A stretch of 63,862 bases of DNA, from assembly GCA_001830285.1 (NCBI GenBank), contig MHYY01000011.1, positions 1 to 63,862 of the forward strand. Direction: 5' to 3'. Position numbers and translations under genes: made by a program. Below are positions 4,926 through 28,065 of the stretch, piece after piece (within the stretch, counting starts at the first letter, position 1; the number at the start of each line of letters is the position of its first letter). The notes under the pieces were generated by a model. It was not told the DNA's origin. It was given only the letters and a program-made list of their open reading frames with translations, and searched no databases. Source of the stretch: Planctomycetes bacterium RIFCSPLOWO2_12_38_17. GTDB taxonomy: Bacteria; Planctomycetota; Brocadiia; Brocadiales; Brocadiaceae.

Positions 4926-5187
4926 ATATTAAATTATAAAATGTAAAGCGAAAAACGCAAGATGCTTAATAGAGTTTATAGTGGATGTAAAAAAGAGATA
5001 CTTCGCTTTTGGTTCAGTATAATAAACCGTCGTTTGTCATTCTGAGCCGTGCGAAGAATATTATTTAATGATTTGAAGCAAAAGAAAGGAGGTGCTTCGC
5101 TTACACTCAAGCATGACGGGTGAACAAGAGATGCTTCATTTCTTTCAGCATGATAAATACTGACTGCCAATCCCTGACCCCTGATCG
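4926..5187. other. Convergent intergenic region holding a dispersed repeat
   Basis: This 262-base gap separates mnmA (+) from the SBBP gene (-). It contains a palindromic repeat copy at 5036-5117 and a 17-base word at 5167-5183 that recurs at 8317-8333. No RNA gene or clear terminator seen. Confidence 0.5.
5036..5117 (+). repeat. Dispersed palindromic element, copy 1
   Basis: It begins GTCATTCTGAG (5036-5046) and ends CTCAAGCATGAC (5106-5117), an imperfect inverted pair. The left end matches the copies at 7630 and 18401, including the following GAAGAAT block. Probably a REP/MITE-like element without coding capacity. Confidence 0.6.
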
Positions 5188-8100
5188 CTACTTTACCACC
5201 TTCACAGTCACCTTTGTACTCAGACTCCCATCCCTGAATGTTACCACTACATTGCCTGTCTTGTTGTTTGCCGTTATCTTAAAACGTGCCTCACCATTTT
5301 CATCAGTAACCTGCATTTGGGGCGCGACACTTATTAATGAAGAATCGCTTACGCTTGCCCTTACCGTATCGCCTTCAACTTGACATCCATTCTCACCTGT
5401 CACAGTAACTATAACTGTATTGCTTTTATTTACCTTTAATATCAGTAAATCAGGTTCTGCTTCTATATCAGTTGCCTCATCGCAAATAATTGGAGTTGGC
5501 GTTGGTGTTGCCGTAGCTGTTGGCGTCGGTGTCGGCGTGTATGGTGTATATGTTACAATAATTGTATCCGCACTTGAATTACCTGCATTATCCGTGGCGG
5601 TTACTGTTATTGTATTATTTCCAACAGAAAGACTTATATTCGATATACTCCAATTTGTCATTCCGTTTGCTGTACCACCACTGCCAACCTTGTCGTTACT
5701 CCACGTTATACTGCTAAGCCCACTCGTTGCATCCATTGCGATTCCGCTAAGACTTATTGTACTACTTGTGGTTGTATAGGTATCATCCGACGTCGGGCTT
5801 GTTATTGCCACTATAGACTCAGTTGTATCCACTACAATGGAGTCTCTCTCCCCGCTCGACACATTGTCATATATATCCTTAAACCATGCATACACAGACT
5901 TACTGCCATCTCCACCGTCTAATTGGTATGGGACATCTTCGTTATAAATGGTTGTGGTTGTGATTTCTGTCCACCCCGAGTCAGATGCAGATGGTTTGAA
6001 GGGATTAGTTGAGCCATAATACCCTGTTACGCCCCATTCATCAGTTGCAGAGAGGTTCAGCGTTACAGAGGTCGTATTTGTGTACTCTGCCCCGCTGTTA
6101 ATGCTTATTGAACCGGTGGGCGCAGTTGTGTCACTGGAAGAGAGATTACTGTCCAGCTTCGAGATAAAGACATCAAAATCACTACCATTGAAAGAGGTAT
6201 CATATACCCCGCTCGTCGTCGGAAAGTCTGTAGAATCAGTATACCCCGTCACAAATACATACCCGCTTGTATCAAGGGCAATGGCACAACCCTCATCATG
6301 GTCAGACCCACCCAGGTACGTGGATGCCGGCAGGCTCGTTAATCCACCATTAAGCTTCGAGATAAAGACATCAAAATCACCACCATTGAAAGAGGTATTC
6401 CATGCCCCGCTCGTCGTCGGAAAGTCTGTAGAATCAGTATACCCCGTCACATATACATGCCCGCTTGTATCAAGTGTAATAAATTGACCATAATCATGAC
6501 CAAACCCGCCCAGATACGTGGATGCCAGCAGGCTGCTTAATCCACCGTCCAGCTTCGAGATAAAGACATCCATACTACCATTTTGAGAGGTATCGTATGC
6601 CTCGCTCGTAGTAGGAAAGGCTGTTGAATAAGTATATCCCGTCACATATACATCCCCGCTTGTGTCGATGGCGAGAGAATAACTCCAATCATAACCAGAC
6701 CCTCCTAGGTAGGTGGAGGCAAGCAGGCTCGTCAATCCGCTGTTCAGCTTCGAGATAAAGACATCACCATAATAACCAACATTAAAAGAGGTATCCCATG
6801 CCCCGCTCGTCGTCGGAAAGTCTGTAGAATCAGTATACCCCGTCACATATACGTTCCCGCTTATGTCGAGGGTAATGGCAGAACCATAGGCATTAGCATC
6901 TCCACCCAGATAGGTGGAGGCAAGCAGGCTTGTCAATCCGCTGTTCAGCTTCGAGATAAAGGCATCCATACTACCATTTTGAGAGGTATCGTATGCCCCG
7001 CTCGTCGTCGGAAAGTCTCTTGAATCGGTCTCCCCCGTCACATATACATGCCCGCTTGTATCAAAGGCAATGGCATAACCCTCATCATGATCAGACCCAC
7101 CTAAGTACGTGGATGCCAGCAGGCTCGTTAATCCACTGTTTAGTTTCGAGACAAAGACATCATGAGAATCATTATGAGAGGTATCATATGCCCCGCTTGT
7201 CGTCGGAAAGTCTATTGAATCAGTATGTCCTGTCACATATACATTCCCGTTTATGTCGAGGGCGAGAGAAATACCCCCATCAAAATTAGACCCGCCCAGG
7301 TACGTGGATGCAAGCAGGCTGTTTAATCCACTATCCAGTTTCGAGACAAAGACATCATGAGAATCATTATGAGAGGTATCATATGCCCCACTCGTCGTCG
7401 GAAAGTCTGTTGAATCAGTATACCCCGTCACATATACATTCCCGCTTGTATCAAGGGTGAGAGAATGACCATGATCATGATTAGACCCGCCCAGGGACGT
7501 GGATGCCAGCAGGGGGTCAATGATGAGGGGTTTGGTGCGGTCGTAAGAGGCTACGGTGAAACCGTACTCGAATTTTTGATTTCGGACTTCGTCGTGAGCG
7601 CTCAGTCGAAGGATTGCGGATTTTTCTCTGTCATTCTGAGCCGAAGGCGAAGAATCTCGTTTCAAAACCAGAGACCCTTCATTGCACTCAGGGTGACACG
7701 TGGTGTCATTTTGTACTGCGGATTTTGGATTTGAAATGCTGTATTCAACATCTACCTCAACCCTCTTACCCTCAATCTCCTGATATGCTACGGGCTTCGT
7801 AAATTTCACAGTCCCAAGTTCCGTCTCTGCCTCAAGCTGTCCCTCTTCATTAACACTCAGTCCCTTAATCCCTTCTACATTTATTTTTATCGAATCAGGG
7901 CCTGCGCCGGGCTTCACACAAAACAATTTTTCTACATTATTTCCATAAGCCCTTAACTTCAGTTCTATACCGTCGTAGATTTCTCCAAGATTTACTGAGT
8001 CGTAGGTTGAAATATTTGTCTTCCATTTAGACGGGTCATTGCCCTTGAAATAATTAACCTTTGTTACAGATTTCTCCTCACCCTGTATTGTTATTGTCTT

Positions 8101-8619
8101 TGCTCCAACAAACTGCTCTTTCAGGGCAACCCCCAGAATTTCAGAATTAGGATTGCTGAATTCTGGATGCTGAATTGAATAATCATAATTTGGAGAGATA
8201 ATTTTGGATATTGAATGACTGCATGAAATCAAGAAAAAGTCCAGCATTTCTGATGGTGATTGTATGCCGCTTCCTGCTATCCGCGGCCCATGACCCGCTT
8301 CCTCTACCCCTGATTCCCAATCTCTGACCCCTGCACCTTGCCCCTCGTCCCTTCCCGGCAACGCATACACAATCTCGCCTTCTTTAGTAACAAACACCGT
8401 CCCGCCGAATGTCTTTGCATAGAACTTTACCTGTCCATTCACCTGACCATTATTAGCAATAAAGGGCATCTGGAGTTTTGCTGTTTTTGTTATAAATTCC
8501 TGATTTGTTGGTTTTATTGCCGGTTCATTGGCGGTCAATACTGGTATGAGTAATAAGAGAAAAGCAATAAGTGATAAAACGCATAGATGGCTTTTGAAGG
8601 GGTTTAAAAGAATAAGCAT
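5188..8619 (-). CDS. Secreted SBBP beta-propeller protein with Ig-like modules
   Basis: A 1143-residue exported protein. A signal peptide (about residues 8-30) leads into an N-terminal SBBP-associated domain (about 40-350, starting FIANNGQVNGQVKFYAKTFGG). Seven SBBP repeats of about 65 residues follow (about 368-828; consensus LLASTYLGGS, GNVYVTGYTDSTDFPTTSGAYDTS, DVFISKL), enough for a closed seven-bladed propeller. Two Ig-like modules (about 830-1045), a Thr-Pro linker and a final Ig-like domain complete it. The start has an AAAGGAGGT ribosome-binding site 7-8 bases upstream. Two stretches (about 95-155 and 295-340) look like dispersed-repeat DNA read in frame. Function unknown; surface display or adhesion is inference. 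Confidence 0.85.
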   Translation of the reverse strand: MLILLNPFKSHLCVLSLIAFLLLLIPVLTANEPAIKPTNQEFITKTAKLQMPFIANNGQVNGQVKFYAKTFGGTVFVTKEGEIVYALPGRDEGQGAGVRDWESGVEEAGHGPRIAGSGIQSPSEMLDFFLISCSHSISKIISPNYDYSIQHPEFSNPNSEILGVALKEQFVGAKTITIQGEEKSVTKVNYFKGNDPSKWKTNISTYDSVNLGEIYDGIELKLRAYGNNVEKLFCVKPGAGPDSIKINVEGIKGLSVNEEGQLEAETELGTVKFTKPVAYQEIEGKRVEVDVEYSISNPKSAVQNDTTCHPECNEGSLVLKRDSSPSAQNDREKSAILRLSAHDEVRNQKFEYGFTVASYDRTKPLIIDPLLASTSLGGSNHDHGHSLTLDTSGNVYVTGYTDSTDFPTTSGAYDTSHNDSHDVFVSKLDSGLNSLLASTYLGGSNFDGGISLALDINGNVYVTGHTDSIDFPTTSGAYDTSHNDSHDVFVSKLNSGLTSLLASTYLGGSDHDEGYAIAFDTSGHVYVTGETDSRDFPTTSGAYDTSQNGSMDAFISKLNSGLTSLLASTYLGGDANAYGSAITLDISGNVYVTGYTDSTDFPTTSGAWDTSFNVGYYGDVFISKLNSGLTSLLASTYLGGSGYDWSYSLAIDTSGDVYVTGYTYSTAFPTTSEAYDTSQNGSMDVFISKLDGGLSSLLASTYLGGFGHDYGQFITLDTSGHVYVTGYTDSTDFPTTSGAWNTSFNGGDFDVFISKLNGGLTSLPASTYLGGSDHDEGCAIALDTSGYVFVTGYTDSTDFPTTSGVYDTSFNGSDFDVFISKLDSNLSSSDTTAPTGSISINSGAEYTNTTSVTLNLSATDEWGVTGYYGSTNPFKPSASDSGWTEITTTTIYNEDVPYQLDGGDGSKSVYAWFKDIYDNVSSGERDSIVVDTTESIVAITSPTSDDTYTTTSSTISLSGIAMDATSGLSSITWSNDKVGSGGTANGMTNWSISNISLSVGNNTITVTATDNAGNSSADTIIVTYTPYTPTPTPTATATPTPTPIICDEATDIEAEPDLLILKVNKSNTVIVTVTGENGCQVEGDTVRASVSDSSLISVAPQMQVTDENGEARFKITANNKTGNVVVTFRDGSLSTKVTVKVVK
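6140..7516 (-). repeat. Seven tandem degenerate repeats of about 195 bp
   Basis: Seven head-to-tail units encode the SBBP propeller blades. At DNA level they share long near-identical stretches, for example around AAGTCTGTAGAATCAGTATA and CCACCCAGGTACGTGGATGC. This suggests recent amplification or ongoing conversion between units. Confidence 0.85.
7630..7697 (+). repeat. Dispersed palindromic element, copy 2, inside a coding region
   Basis: GTCATTCTGAG (7630-7640) and CTCAGGGTGAC (7687-7697) bracket GAAGAATCTCGT and AAAACCA. These blocks occur in the same order in the intergenic copy at 18401-18482. Here the element is translated on the minus strand as part of the SBBP protein without breaking its frame. 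Confidence 0.7.
8317..8333. repeat. 17-bp word repeated at 5167-5183
   Basis: CCAATCTCTGACCCCTG here and CCAATCCCTGACCCCTG at 5167-5183 differ at one base. They lie in the 5' part and just past the 3' end of the SBBP gene. Confidence 0.5.
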
Positions 8620-18400: not shown

Positions 18401-18482
18401 GTCATTCTGAACGGAGTAACGCGGAGTGAAGAATCTCGTCTCTAAAACCATGTATCAAACTCTTCGCTATGCTCAGGATGAC
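18401..18482 (+). repeat. Dispersed palindromic element, copy 3
   Basis: GTCATTCTGAA (18401-18411) and CTCAGGATGAC (18472-18482) are inverted ends. GAAGAATCTCGT and AAAACCA lie between them, matching the copy inside the SBBP gene. Confidence 0.65.
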
Positions 18483-21667: not shown

Positions 21668-22031
21668 ATGAAGAAATACGTATTGGGTGTATTGTGTGCA
21701 GGATTTTTAGGTAGGAGCCGTCTCCCGACGGCAATTTTATGCTGGGTAATAGTTCACCGCAAAGGACACGAAGACTTCGTCGTGAGCTCAGTCGAACGAA
21801 CGAAGAGAAATAACAAAATAAAGTGGAGCATCCGCATAGTTTTTCTGAACGAACATAATAATATCAACGCAGGCATCATCTGATGCAGACTGATTCTTTG
21901 AGTTTACAGATTTAGATGCAGGTAAGTATGTTATCAAGGCGATAAAGAAGGGTTATAAGAGATATAAGCGGACAATACGCATTGAAGAGGGGGAAGAGAA
22001 AGAGATTGAGATAAAAATGAAGAAGCAGTAA
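21668..22031 (+). pseudogene. Decayed secreted-protein gene with carboxypeptidase-regulatory-like C terminus
   Basis: A start with a strong RBS (AAGGAGG) opens a signal peptide (MKKYVLGVLCAGFLG). The reading then runs into dispersed-repeat DNA and stops at 21881-21883. In another frame, 21861-22031 encodes a domain end (ASSDAD, stop, FFEFTDLDAGKYVIKAIKKG, ending MKKQ). This parallels the last domain of the propeller protein at 23359 (TTSNDGGYFECEGLGTDTY). The TGA at 21891-21893 sits where the paralogue has glycine, so GGA to TGA is likely. Frameshift, nonsense change and missing middle all indicate a remnant. Confidence 0.7.
21798..21844. repeat. 47-bp direct repeat, left copy
   Basis: This segment (AAGAGAAATAACAAAATAAAG ... 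GCATAGTTTTT, abbreviated) recurs at 22846-22892 with about five mismatches in 47 bases. The two copies bracket the vapC region. Confidence 0.65.
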
Positions 22032-23358: not shown

Positions 23359-26300
23359 ATGAGAAGTATACCATCATTTTGTATGCCGGTTTTATTGGCA
23401 CTTTTTGCACTGAGCGGAGTCGGAGTGTCAATACATATTCCATCGGCGGCTGCGGCGCCAACGGTGACAGCCACCATTTCAATTGGGGGTCATGTCACTG
23501 GCGTTGGAGTCAATTCCTCGACGAACCGTATCTATGTGGCAAATTATGAGAGGGGTACGGTTGCTGTAATAGATGGCGCTACCAACTCGGTAACATCTAC
23601 TATTTCGGGTATGAGTTATACTCATGGTGTTGGAGTCAATTCCACGACAAATCGTATCTATGTGACAAATTATTATTACGTCAATACGGTGAGTGTGATA
23701 GACGGCGCTACCAATACGATTATATCTACTATTCCGGTTGGATTTGGTGCCCGTTACGTTGGAGTTAATTCCACGACAAACCGTATCTATGTGACAAATT
23801 TACAAGCTGGTACGGTTAGTGTAATAGACGGCACTACCAATACGGTTATCTCTACCATTTCGGTTGGGAGTGGGAGCAACCCTGATGGTGTTGGAGTCAA
23901 TTCCTCGACAAATCGTATCTATGTGGCAACTGGGGGTAGCAAGACGGTTAGTGTAATAGATGGAGCTACCAATACGGTTATCTCTACCATTTCAGTTGGG
24001 AGTGGGAGCACCCCTGCGGGTGTTGGAGTAAATTCCTCGACAAATCGTATCTATGTGTCAAATGGTGGTAGCAATACGGTAAGTGTAATAGATGGAGCTA
24101 CCGATACGGTGATATCTACTATTTCGGTTGGGACAAGTCCCAATGGCGTTGGAGTCAATGTTTCGACAAATCATATCTATGTGGCAAATGGTGGCGGTAC
24201 GGCTAGTGTCATAGATGGCGCTACCAATACGGTGCTATCTACCATTTCGGGTGTTGCAAGTGATCTCCATAGCGTTGGAGTCAATTCCTCGACAAACCGT
24301 ATCTATATGTCAAGTTTTGGTGGCGGTACGGTTAGTGTAATAGATGATTCTCCGTCTTCACCGCCCACTGTAGTGACAAGTTCAGCGACCGATGTAACGT
24401 CAAACTCCGCAACGCTCAATGGCACGGTGAATGCCAATGGGTTATCAACAACGGCATGGTTCAACTACGGCATCACCAGCGGTTCGTACACCGGCACATC
24501 AACCACACAATCAGTAAGCGGTTCAAGCGATACAACTGTCAGCATCGGCATCAGCGGACTTTCATCGAGCACGACCTATTATTACCGGATAGCGGCATCA
24601 AGCAGCGCAGGGACCTCGTATGGAAGCGAGGCATCTTTTACCACATCAGCTCCACCGGATACTAGTGCGCCTACAGGTTCAATCAGCATCAACAGCGGCG
24701 CTTCATACACTAATTCAACAACAGTAACCCTCAGCCTTACAGCTACGGACAGTGTGGGAATAACAGGATATTACCTTTCTACGAGTTCCACCACCCCTTC
24801 CGCATCTGCCTCTGGCTGGACGTCTGTTGCCTCGACTACCAGCTATAGTGCAAGCGTAACTTACACCTTAAGCAGCGGGGACGGCAGCAAAACGGTGTAC
24901 GCATGGTACAAGGATGCAGCGGGGAATGTATCAAGCGCAGCAAGCGACTCCATTACCCTGGATGCAACAGCACCAACCGTCACCATCACCAGTCCCACAA
25001 CCAGCGCTACATATACTTCTACAACCAGTACCATAAGTCTGGGTGGGAGCGCATCGGATAGTACGAGCGGGGTAAGCAGTGTGACGTGGAGCAATAGCGG
25101 CGGAGGTAGTGGGACGGCAAGCGGAACGACGAGCTGGAGCGTTTCGAGTGTAAGCTTAACGAGCGGCAGTAATGTGATAACGGTAACTGCCACAGACAAT
25201 GCGGGCAATACCGCTACGGATACGATAACGGTGACATATGGGGGCACATGGGCCACCAAAACCTCAATGTCTGCGGCACGGTCTTTGGCTGCGGCAGGGG
25301 TGATTACTGATGTCCTCTATGTTGCAGGCGGTCATGATGGGACAGGAGGGACTACTACGCTTCAGGCATACAATCCAACAACAAATACCTGGAGTACTCT
25401 GGCACCCATGCCAGGTCGTCGGTATGCCGGAGATGGTGCTGGCGTAATAGATGGCGAGCTTTACGTGCCAGGGGGATGGAACTATCCTGACAGCAGCCTT
25501 CCACAGTCCCAGTTATATGTCTATAACCCCGGTACTAATTCGTGGAGGACCGAGACCAGCATGCCCACGCTTAGCGGTGATGGAGCTTCCGGCGTAATCA
25601 ACGGCAAGCTCTATGTTACAACCGCAGCCAATGGTTACAGTGGCTTCAGAAACTTCCTGCATGTTTATAACCCGGTCACCGATACCTGGAGCAGCCTGGC
25701 TTCATCACCTAATGCCCACGCAGACCCGGCATTTGGAGTCATTGATGGAAAATTCTATGTGGCAGGTGGAGGCGATGCGAACGGGGCTCCCTCTAGTAAA
25801 CTGGATGTATATGATCCAGCCACAAACACATGGGCTACCAAAGCCTCCATGCCAGCAGCAGGATCACATTTTGCTAGTGGGGTTTACAACGGTAAACTCT
25901 ATGCTGCAGGGGGGTATATAGGCGGCGCCTCCTCTAATACCGTGTATGTATACGACCCATCGGCTAACACATGGACAACTGAGACCTCAATGCCAACAGC
26001 CCGCTACGGTGCAGCGGGTGGCGTCATTAGCAATGTATTCTATGTTGTGGGAGGCATCAATAGCACGGGTAGTACTCTGGCAACTGTCGAAGCGCTTACA
26101 TTTTCATCACTTCCTACAACACCAACGGCAACCGTGACTGCAACGGCAACTGCAACGCCAACACCAACAGTGACGGCAACTCCTACAGCAACGACGACAC
26201 CAACAGCGACACCAACGGCAACCGTGACTGCAACACCAACAGTGACAATTACACCAACACCTACTGGTTCACCGACACCGACGCCTATAGTAATAGTTAC

Positions 26301-28065
26301 GATAACTCCTACTCCGACGGTGACGGCAACTCTTACAACAACGCCAACAGTAACCGTGACTGCAACGCCAACGGCAACTCCTACAGCAACGCCAACACCA
26401 ACAGTTACTGCGACACCCACAACGGCGCTAACACCACAGGTATCATTAGGCTGGGAGCATACGGCGGCATTAATGCCGGATGGCACAGTTTGGACGTGTG
26501 GAAGAAACGATAATGGACAATTAGGCGATGGAACAACACGAGACAAACTAACACCCGTGCAGGTAATTGGATTGAGCGATGTTATTGCCATATCCGCGGG
26601 CGGTTTACATACGATTGCATTGAATGAAGATGGTACAGTGTGGACATGGGGTAATAACATTTACGGTCAATTGGGCGATGGAAGCGCCATCAATAGAAGG
26701 ACAACACCGGTTCAGGTAACAGGTTTAAGAGATATAATAGCCATAGCAGGAGGCGGGTATCATGGTTTGGCGCTTAAGTCAGACGGCACCGTGTGGACAT
26801 GGGGGAATAATGTGTATGGTCAATTAGGGGACAGGACAAAAACGAGCAGGAGTACCCCTGTGCAGGTAAAATTTCTCGATGGTGTTACTGCTATAGCCGG
26901 GGGAGGCTACCACAGTATGGCGCTTGAATCGGATGGTACGGTGTGGACATGGGGTTATAACAAGTACGGCCAACTGGGTGATGGGACGAATAGAGATAGT
27001 AGTATAATAACGCAGATAATCGGATTGAGCAATGTAACAAATATCTCAGCAGGAGGATTACACAGCCTTGCGCGTAAATCAGACGGCACGATATGGACAT
27101 GGGGATATAACAAGTATGGACAACTGGGGGTTGGAGACACAGCAGACAGAAATGTACCCCTACAGGCGCGCAGTATTAGGAATGCAGCAGCTATAGGGGG
27201 AGGTGGATACCATAGCCTTGCGATAAAGTCAGACAATACAGTACTTGCATGGGGAAGGAACAGTTTTGGCCAGTTGGGAGATGGTTCAACGGTTAATAGA
27301 ACAACCCCTGTGAGTGTGCGTGGGATAAGTGATGTTACGATAATAGCCGGCGGGGGGTACCACAGCGCGGCGATAAAGGCAAGCAGGACATTTTGGACGT
27401 GGGGGAGGAATAATCATGGGCAATTGGGGGTTGGAGACAAGGATGACAGGAGCATACCTGTAGAGGTGGGTGCTGAAAGAGAGGCGGTTGTGAGCGGGGA
27501 AGCGATAAGTGAAGAAGCTACAACAGCGTCAGATGATGGGTCATTTACTGTAACGCAGGAAACGGGTGTAATATCAGGGTATGTGCGTGATAGAGAGGAC
27601 AATGCATTAAAGGGTGTTACGATAGACGTGGGAGGGATAGGCGTTTCGAACAATACGGAGACGAATGAGGATGGACACTATGCAGTTACTAATCTTGAGA
27701 GTGGCGATTACACGTTTATATATGAGAAAGAGGGTTACCAGCGGAAGATAAGCGATGCAAGCCTTGGAGAGAGTGAGGGGTTAGACCTTGGGGTAACCAT
27801 CCTGGAAACAAGCGGGAAGGTACATGGTCGTGTGGTGGATGATGAGGGTAATCCAATGGAATCAGTAAAGTTAAAAATCAGAGGTAAGAAAACAATGGTA
27901 CAGAAGACCACCACTTCTAATGATGGTGGGTACTTTGAATGCGAGGGTTTAGGAACTGATACGTATGTGATTACCGCTAGGAAGAGTGGCTATAAGTCTG
28001 GCAGGCAGACAATACGATTAGAGGATGGAGGCAAGGAAGAAATCGAGGTCAGAATAAGGAAATAA
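23359..28065 (+). CDS. Giant secreted protein with YVTN, Kelch and RCC1 propellers
   Basis: A 1568-residue exported protein. Domain order: signal peptide (about 1-33); seven YVTN-type repeats (about 34-330; VGVNSSTNRIYVAN, TVSVIDGATNT); FN3-like domain (about 335-430); two Ig-like modules (about 435-625); six Kelch motifs (about 628-905); a Thr/Pro/Ala/Val linker (about 915-1025); seven RCC1 repeats (about 1027-1370; TWGNNIYGQLGDG); and two carboxypeptidase-regulatory-like domains (about 1403-1568). Three predicted propellers in one chain is unusual. The start has an AAAAGGAGGT RBS. Base composition is visibly more GC-rich than its neighbours. Cell-surface scaffold or adhesin is inference. 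Confidence 0.88.
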   Translation: MRSIPSFCMPVLLALFALSGVGVSIHIPSAAAAPTVTATISIGGHVTGVGVNSSTNRIYVANYERGTVAVIDGATNSVTSTISGMSYTHGVGVNSTTNRIYVTNYYYVNTVSVIDGATNTIISTIPVGFGARYVGVNSTTNRIYVTNLQAGTVSVIDGTTNTVISTISVGSGSNPDGVGVNSSTNRIYVATGGSKTVSVIDGATNTVISTISVGSGSTPAGVGVNSSTNRIYVSNGGSNTVSVIDGATDTVISTISVGTSPNGVGVNVSTNHIYVANGGGTASVIDGATNTVLSTISGVASDLHSVGVNSSTNRIYMSSFGGGTVSVIDDSPSSPPTVVTSSATDVTSNSATLNGTVNANGLSTTAWFNYGITSGSYTGTSTTQSVSGSSDTTVSIGISGLSSSTTYYYRIAASSSAGTSYGSEASFTTSAPPDTSAPTGSISINSGASYTNSTTVTLSLTATDSVGITGYYLSTSSTTPSASASGWTSVASTTSYSASVTYTLSSGDGSKTVYAWYKDAAGNVSSAASDSITLDATAPTVTITSPTTSATYTSTTSTISLGGSASDSTSGVSSVTWSNSGGGSGTASGTTSWSVSSVSLTSGSNVITVTATDNAGNTATDTITVTYGGTWATKTSMSAARSLAAAGVITDVLYVAGGHDGTGGTTTLQAYNPTTNTWSTLAPMPGRRYAGDGAGVIDGELYVPGGWNYPDSSLPQSQLYVYNPGTNSWRTETSMPTLSGDGASGVINGKLYVTTAANGYSGFRNFLHVYNPVTDTWSSLASSPNAHADPAFGVIDGKFYVAGGGDANGAPSSKLDVYDPATNTWATKASMPAAGSHFASGVYNGKLYAAGGYIGGASSNTVYVYDPSANTWTTETSMPTARYGAAGGVISNVFYVVGGINSTGSTLATVEALTFSSLPTTPTATVTATATATPTPTVTATPTATTTPTATPTATVTATPTVTITPTPTGSPTPTPIVIVTITPTPTVTATLTTTPTVTVTATPTATPTATPTPTVTATPTTALTPQVSLGWEHTAALMPDGTVWTCGRNDNGQLGDGTTRDKLTPVQVIGLSDVIAISAGGLHTIALNEDGTVWTWGNNIYGQLGDGSAINRRTTPVQVTGLRDIIAIAGGGYHGLALKSDGTVWTWGNNVYGQLGDRTKTSRSTPVQVKFLDGVTAIAGGGYHSMALESDGTVWTWGYNKYGQLGDGTNRDSSIITQIIGLSNVTNISAGGLHSLARKSDGTIWTWGYNKYGQLGVGDTADRNVPLQARSIRNAAAIGGGGYHSLAIKSDNTVLAWGRNSFGQLGDGSTVNRTTPVSVRGISDVTIIAGGGYHSAAIKASRTFWTWGRNNHGQLGVGDKDDRSIPVEVGAEREAVVSGEAISEEATTASDDGSFTVTQETGVISGYVRDREDNALKGVTIDVGGIGVSNNTETNEDGHYAVTNLESGDYTFIYEKEGYQRKISDASLGESEGLDLGVTILETSGKVHGRVVDDEGNPMESVKLKIRGKKTMVQKTTTSNDGGYFECEGLGTDTYVITARKSGYKSGRQTIRLEDGGKEEIEVRIRK
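26107..26435 (+). repeat. Low-complexity Thr/Pro linker DNA
   Basis: Reiterated ACNCCAACNGC/GTGACTGCAACG-type codons encode a TPTATVTATPT-like stalk joining the Kelch and RCC1 parts. Likely slippage-prone; a shorter stalk of the same kind occurs in the SBBP protein. Confidence 0.8.

Follow-up and report, generated by a model that had tools for sequence, protein, structure and literature searches.

Probable in-frame insertion of a dispersed REP doublet into a tolerant DUF7948 loop of an SBBP protein in Brocadiales

The occurrence of REPs and RPEs in frame within ORFs is already a published phenomenon (PMC3733652, PMC10969869). As summarized in these two papers, the RPEs (Ogata et al. 2000, 2002) are dispersed palindromes that lie in frame in unrelated ORFs of Rickettsia. 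In the superfamily of CGTC-tagged REPs, TGTC is a common variant of the tag, some copies are located in ORFs, and there is no dedicated transposase (PMC3733652). In REPINs, two inverted REP units form a mobile-looking doublet (Bertels and Rainey 2011, PMC3116915). The new aspects of the case described here are the host lineage (Brocadiales, the anammox group) and the repeated capture of the element by the loops of a single domain family.

The window, that is, the whole stretch of 63,862 nt that was analysed, is contig C11 of a 2.10-Mb MAG (181 contigs, 85% complete), for which Candidatus Brocadiaceae are the closest relatives that bear a name. It contains the following relevant features:

5188-8619, minus strand: host gene, encoding a secreted-type SBBP beta-propeller protein of 1143 aa (ORF and Pfam)
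7585-7713, minus strand: insert of ~129 bp (43 codons, aa 303-345) relative to paralogue C4, edges approximate (blastn flanks, core HMM, pLDDT)
7629-7698, unstranded: REP doublet of 70 bp, TGTC...GACA outward (alignment and unit search)
7630-7660, plus strand: REP unit 1, stem ATTCT/AGAAT, read in the gene as KRDSSPSAQND (unit model R1, 41.5 bits)
7669-7697, minus strand: REP unit 2, stem ACCCT/AGGGT, read in the gene as CHPECNEGSL (unit model R1, 35.1 bits)
7611-7734, plus strand: block of 124 bp common to the window and loop 1 of paralogue C12, 90% identity (DNA alignment)
7584-7613, plus strand: fragment of a second, unrelated dispersed element B (~27 bp, GTCGTGAGCGCTCAGTCGAA), 93% identity over 30 bp to loop 1 of C12
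18401-18482, unstranded: intergenic REP doublet (units 18401-18439, plus, and 18454-18482, minus), with weaker similarity past the doublet
5036-5154, unstranded: intergenic unit cluster past the 3' end of the SBBP gene (5036-5064, plus; 5087-5117, minus, weak; 5126-5154, minus)

The doublet (TGTCATTCTGAGCC...CTCAGGGTGACA) is translated in frame in the SBBP gene as CHPECNEGSLVLKRDSSPSAQND. The initial annotation, made from the sequence of the window, described it as a palindromic element; the repeat is real and consists of two inverted units of ~30 bp rather than one simple palindrome. The 29-position unit has the form TGTC-A-NNN-T-GA-loop-GA-A-N'N'N'-T-CT, with a stem of 5 bp followed by tandem GA/GA mismatches, a second pair that is T-A or C-G, and the tail CT; the TGTC tag is present in 25 of 29 units from the same genome. 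The middle bases of the stem vary among the units yet remain complementary (ATTCT/AGAAT, ACCCT/AGGGT, ATGCT/AGCAT). Among the model matches, in an alignment fitted to the model, 96% of the stem cells are paired, and the covariation score is 0.349, compared to 0.148 for shuffled alignments and at most 0.052 for slid ones.

Within the window, there are 5 matches to GTCATTCTGAG (0.93 expected; 5 reached in 0 of 100 shuffles), including exact ones at 7630-7640 and 5036-5046 and ones with a single mismatch at 18401 and 18472 (minus strand). Aligned with itself, the 69-bp element gives an E value of 3.4e-30; with contig C12 of the MAG the value is 2.8e-26 (96%), and with the elements at 18401 and 5036 the alignment is only partial. 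The previously claimed recurrence of the 7630-7697 block at 18401-18482, and in part at 5036-5117, thus holds in the form of GTCATTCTGAG matches and partial alignments. A search of the entire 2.1-Mb MAG with the unit model produced 47 matches at E<0.1; among the best 30, 22 are located outside ORFs of at least 100 aa, and the remaining 8 reside in four genes, three of which are DUF7948-SBBP paralogues. Unit matches were detected in 38 of the 39 genomes included in the search of relatives, with a maximum of 146 in one genome; the exact unit pattern was found in 19 of the 199 genomes of the phylum and the reversed pattern, used as a control, in none. The element accordingly is what the term REP denotes, a dispersed palindromic unit of 20-40 bp that is mostly extragenic, and the genome-wide count, together with the in-frame copy that a paralogue carries in another position, supports the earlier interpretation of a captured repeat. 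No Rfam family corresponds to the REP element in the 7400-7900 region, the only match being a sub-threshold one to a snoRNA that lies elsewhere; literature matches to the words GTCATTCTGAG, CHPERSEG and CHSEERSEESR appear to be chance hits to primers or oligonucleotides.

Like the CGTC-REPs (PMC3733652), the Brocadiales element is a short hairpin with an A-T first stem pair, forms doublets, has some copies in ORFs, and comes without a detectable dedicated transposase. Its unpaired tag reads TGTC instead of CGTC and may correspond to the common variant in that superfamily. It differs from them in the tail (CT instead of CCA) and in the stem, which spans 5 bp with tandem G/A mismatches rather than 8-9 bp starting with A-T, A-T, so that neither the stem nor the tail that define the CGTC-REPs is found here. 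The arrangement of two inverted units resembles that of REPINs (PMC3116915) but the GTAG tag is absent, and no RAYT neighbourhood was found for the family; neither of the hallmarks of the GTAG-REP/RAYT system, the tag and a repeat-flanked RAYT gene, applies to the family. A RAYT or transposase source, as proposed initially, could not be substantiated for the family as a whole: scanning of 40 Y1_Tnp loci with the unit model showed no family-wide link to a transposase, and RAYT was rejected as the general source because only one of the 40 loci is flanked by units and one more has a doublet ~1 kb away. In the former, the Y1_Tnp gene of G031 (contig C13, L214) is flanked on both sides by strong units and represents a candidate source element in that genome; the latter is the locus of G038 (L215), and matches at two further Y1_Tnp loci are weak. 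The similarity to RPEs, likened by description as given in the papers cited above, concerns the in-frame placement of dispersed palindromes in unrelated ORFs, where they encode extra peptide segments; RPEs are ~150 bp long and come from Rickettsia, whereas here a 70-bp doublet of ~30-bp units is found in Brocadiales. Also unlike RPEs, the Brocadiales element repeatedly enters the loops of one domain family.

The host gene is a single uninterrupted frame of 1143 aa with the doublet included, as maintained in the initial annotation. The protein matches the Pfam families SBBP (3.2e-53, 177.8 bits) and DUF7948 (1e-52, 179.7 bits) above the cut-off, and consists of a DUF7948 domain (aa 53 to ~370) that is interrupted by the insert, SBBP propeller repeats and C-terminal Ig-like domains; a fold search of the DUF7948 model against PDB returned no match at E<0.001. 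The host protein carries a 42-aa insertion at position 221 of the core HMM. Paralogue C4 matches both flanks of the insert in blastn, the exact edges being uncertain given that the full pairwise DNA alignment with C4 is ambiguous in this region. The part of the protein that precedes the insert matches positions 1-193 of the 214 in the DUF7948 profile, and the last strands (FEYGFTVASYDRTKPLIIDP) follow the insert. The repeat therefore lies inside DUF7948 and not, as its original placement just before the propeller would suggest, between this domain and the propeller. Within the insert, CHPE begins at aa 308 and AQND finishes at aa 330, so that the earlier estimate of residues 295-340 was correct within a few positions. 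The segment is missing in homologues with ~57-63% identity to the host DUF7948, supporting the claim that it has no normal counterpart; as in RPEs, this is an in-frame insertion in an intact ORF that is absent from homologues. The AlphaFold model places the insert in a segment whose pLDDT stays below 50 and which runs into a helix of low confidence, between strands of a core with values of mostly 85-97.

In-frame units in DUF7948 recur in relatives: one in G024 (contig C64) occupies the same loop as in the window gene, another is in loop 1 in G016, and a third, in G024 (contig C25), falls at profile position 112|112, within the conserved Y-x-GID motif. In a census of 116 DUF7948-matching ORF regions from relatives, 12 REP motifs were found in 23.2 kb of variable loops compared to 1 in the remaining 204.5 kb (Fisher test, 1.5e-11). 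The loops are defined as insertions relative to the core model, so that the enrichment within DUF7948 is partly circular; comparison with the propeller is free of this circularity and is the fair one. Three other classes of repeat motifs are enriched in the same loops, less strongly (6e-5 to 5e-6). Outside DUF7948, in-frame units were identified in a U32 peptidase, a glycosyltransferase, CbiD, a Memo-AMMECR1 linker and a pentapeptide protein. Tolerance of in-frame units is general across proteins, with DUF7948 over-represented. Among the 129-bp stretches around intergenic units, only 8 of 132 frames (6%) are open; the surviving in-frame copies thus are a filtered minority.

Comparison of the window gene with C4 shows that 0.26, 0.21 and 0.47 of the first, second and third codon positions, respectively, differ in the DUF7948 core, and changes in the propeller between paralogues are likewise concentrated at third positions. 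The 124-bp block shared with C12 has 6, 4 and 2 changes at the three positions, from only 12 changes. Constraint is thus evident for the flanking gene, but none is visible for the insert on this small count; because the insert, unlike the core, lacks an excess of third-position changes, tolerated selfish or neutral DNA is its best reading.

Taken together, the dispersal of the units, the covariation in the hairpins, the in-frame position, the absence from homologues, the recurrence in loops and the weak constraint on the peptide make it very probable that a dispersed REP repeat, itself selfish or neutral, inserted in frame and is tolerated in a disordered DUF7948 loop of the SBBP protein. Under this scenario, a REPIN-like, non-autonomous doublet of TGTC-tagged hairpins would have arrived, by transposition or ectopic recombination, in a loop that is exposed, disordered and close to the C-terminus of the domain, and a fragment of the second dispersed repeat would have entered the same loop together with it. 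The insert presumably persists given the tolerance of such loops to extra hydrophilic sequence, and insertions that hit the core or the propeller, or that break the frame, would be purged. The nearest homologues lacking the insert are paralogues or lie at family distance (57-63% identity) rather than being alleles of the same gene, which limits this explanation. The notion of capture as protein-coding sequence is fair in the sense of a tolerated insertion; nothing indicates a new function.

The copies in the window and in C12 have flanks in common past the doublet, which makes transfer from one paralogue to another no less possible a route than transposition. Conceivably, although with a clearly lower probability than the insertion scenario as a whole, the block did not transpose into this gene but came from another SBBP paralogue, through ectopic recombination or gene conversion; GGATTT heptad tracts present in the loops may have guided the process. 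Indeed, the 124-bp block, which contains the doublet and is in frame in C12, is longer than the 70-bp doublet and has GGATTT-like heptads at both edges; the heptad motif is enriched in the loops, and C4 and C12 share another unit in loop 2 (around DUF7948 position 150). However, the block occupies non-homologous loops, loop 3 in the window gene and loop 1 in C12, and REP insertions in other genomes require an independent source. Furthermore, across the genome the density of heptads rises only mildly in the vicinity of units (4.0 vs 2.4 per kb), and given this weak enrichment a general association of heptad tracts with the units was rejected.

The tolerated-insertion reading can be extended, with considerable doubt, to the proposal that three DUF7948 loops in Brocadiales repeatedly capture dispersed repeats of several unrelated kinds. 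If so, these loops would provide a standing route from intergenic selfish DNA to exposed protein sequence, and would diversify a family of secreted propeller proteins that exists in multiple copies. Irrespective of this, the many DUF7948 paralogues constitute a countable natural experiment in which intergenic repeats repeatedly enter the reading frame at the same loops, and open up the question of whether the peptides are carried along as neutral passengers or ever become domesticated.

Selection for the inserted peptides, with repeat capture diversifying the exposed loops of secreted propeller proteins for surface variation or binding, appears improbable. Several repeat types use the same loops repeatedly, and the DUF7948 loops of the genome itself contain 6 units in 1.78 kb, more than the 0.10 per kb estimated for intergenic DNA (the intergenic size being extrapolated from the ORF cover of the window); but the shared block shows no third-position excess, the units in CbiD, the Memo-AMMECR1 linker, the U32 peptidase and the glycosyltransferase point to general tolerance, and the independent events are few. 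It is highly unlikely that the ORF is open by chance in a decaying or unexpressed gene: in a near-identical pair from G021 and G019, a stop follows soon after a unit in loop 3, whereas the window gene remains open over 1143 codons with third-position-heavy changes in both core and propeller. An assembly artefact, for which one could invoke the fragmentation and incompleteness of the MAG, can be practically dismissed given that the element is in frame on two contigs of the MAG and similar in-frame insertions exist in other genomes.

The database peptides that resemble the translated units, such as CHSERSEES and AQND, call for caution as they can be a sign of repeat DNA instead of a conserved domain. 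An in-frame CHSERSEESS unit is present in the CbiD gene of G024 (L244:649-1818, contig C55; 325 bits, whole profile matched); the unit in the linker of the Memo-AMMECR1 fusion comes from the same genome (L245, contig C73), and the one in the glycosyltransferase gene of G004 (L118, contig C168) precedes the matched domains. The L061 and L187 stretches, 2.5 kb long and 99.3% identical, were for this reason treated as a single case; they belong to MAGs placed in different genera, their near-identity reflecting either a recent transfer or a shared mis-binned contig. Element B has another copy in the window, at 21773-21799; in C12 (L046:4198-4224, G000), it forms a 27-bp in-frame addition that has no equivalent at the matching place in C4 (L045, G000), and identical 27-bp copies occur at many places in G018. 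The window also contains tandem arrays at 26093-26448, 23500-24346 and 26550-27131, with periods of 12 nt, about 130 nt and about 150 nt.
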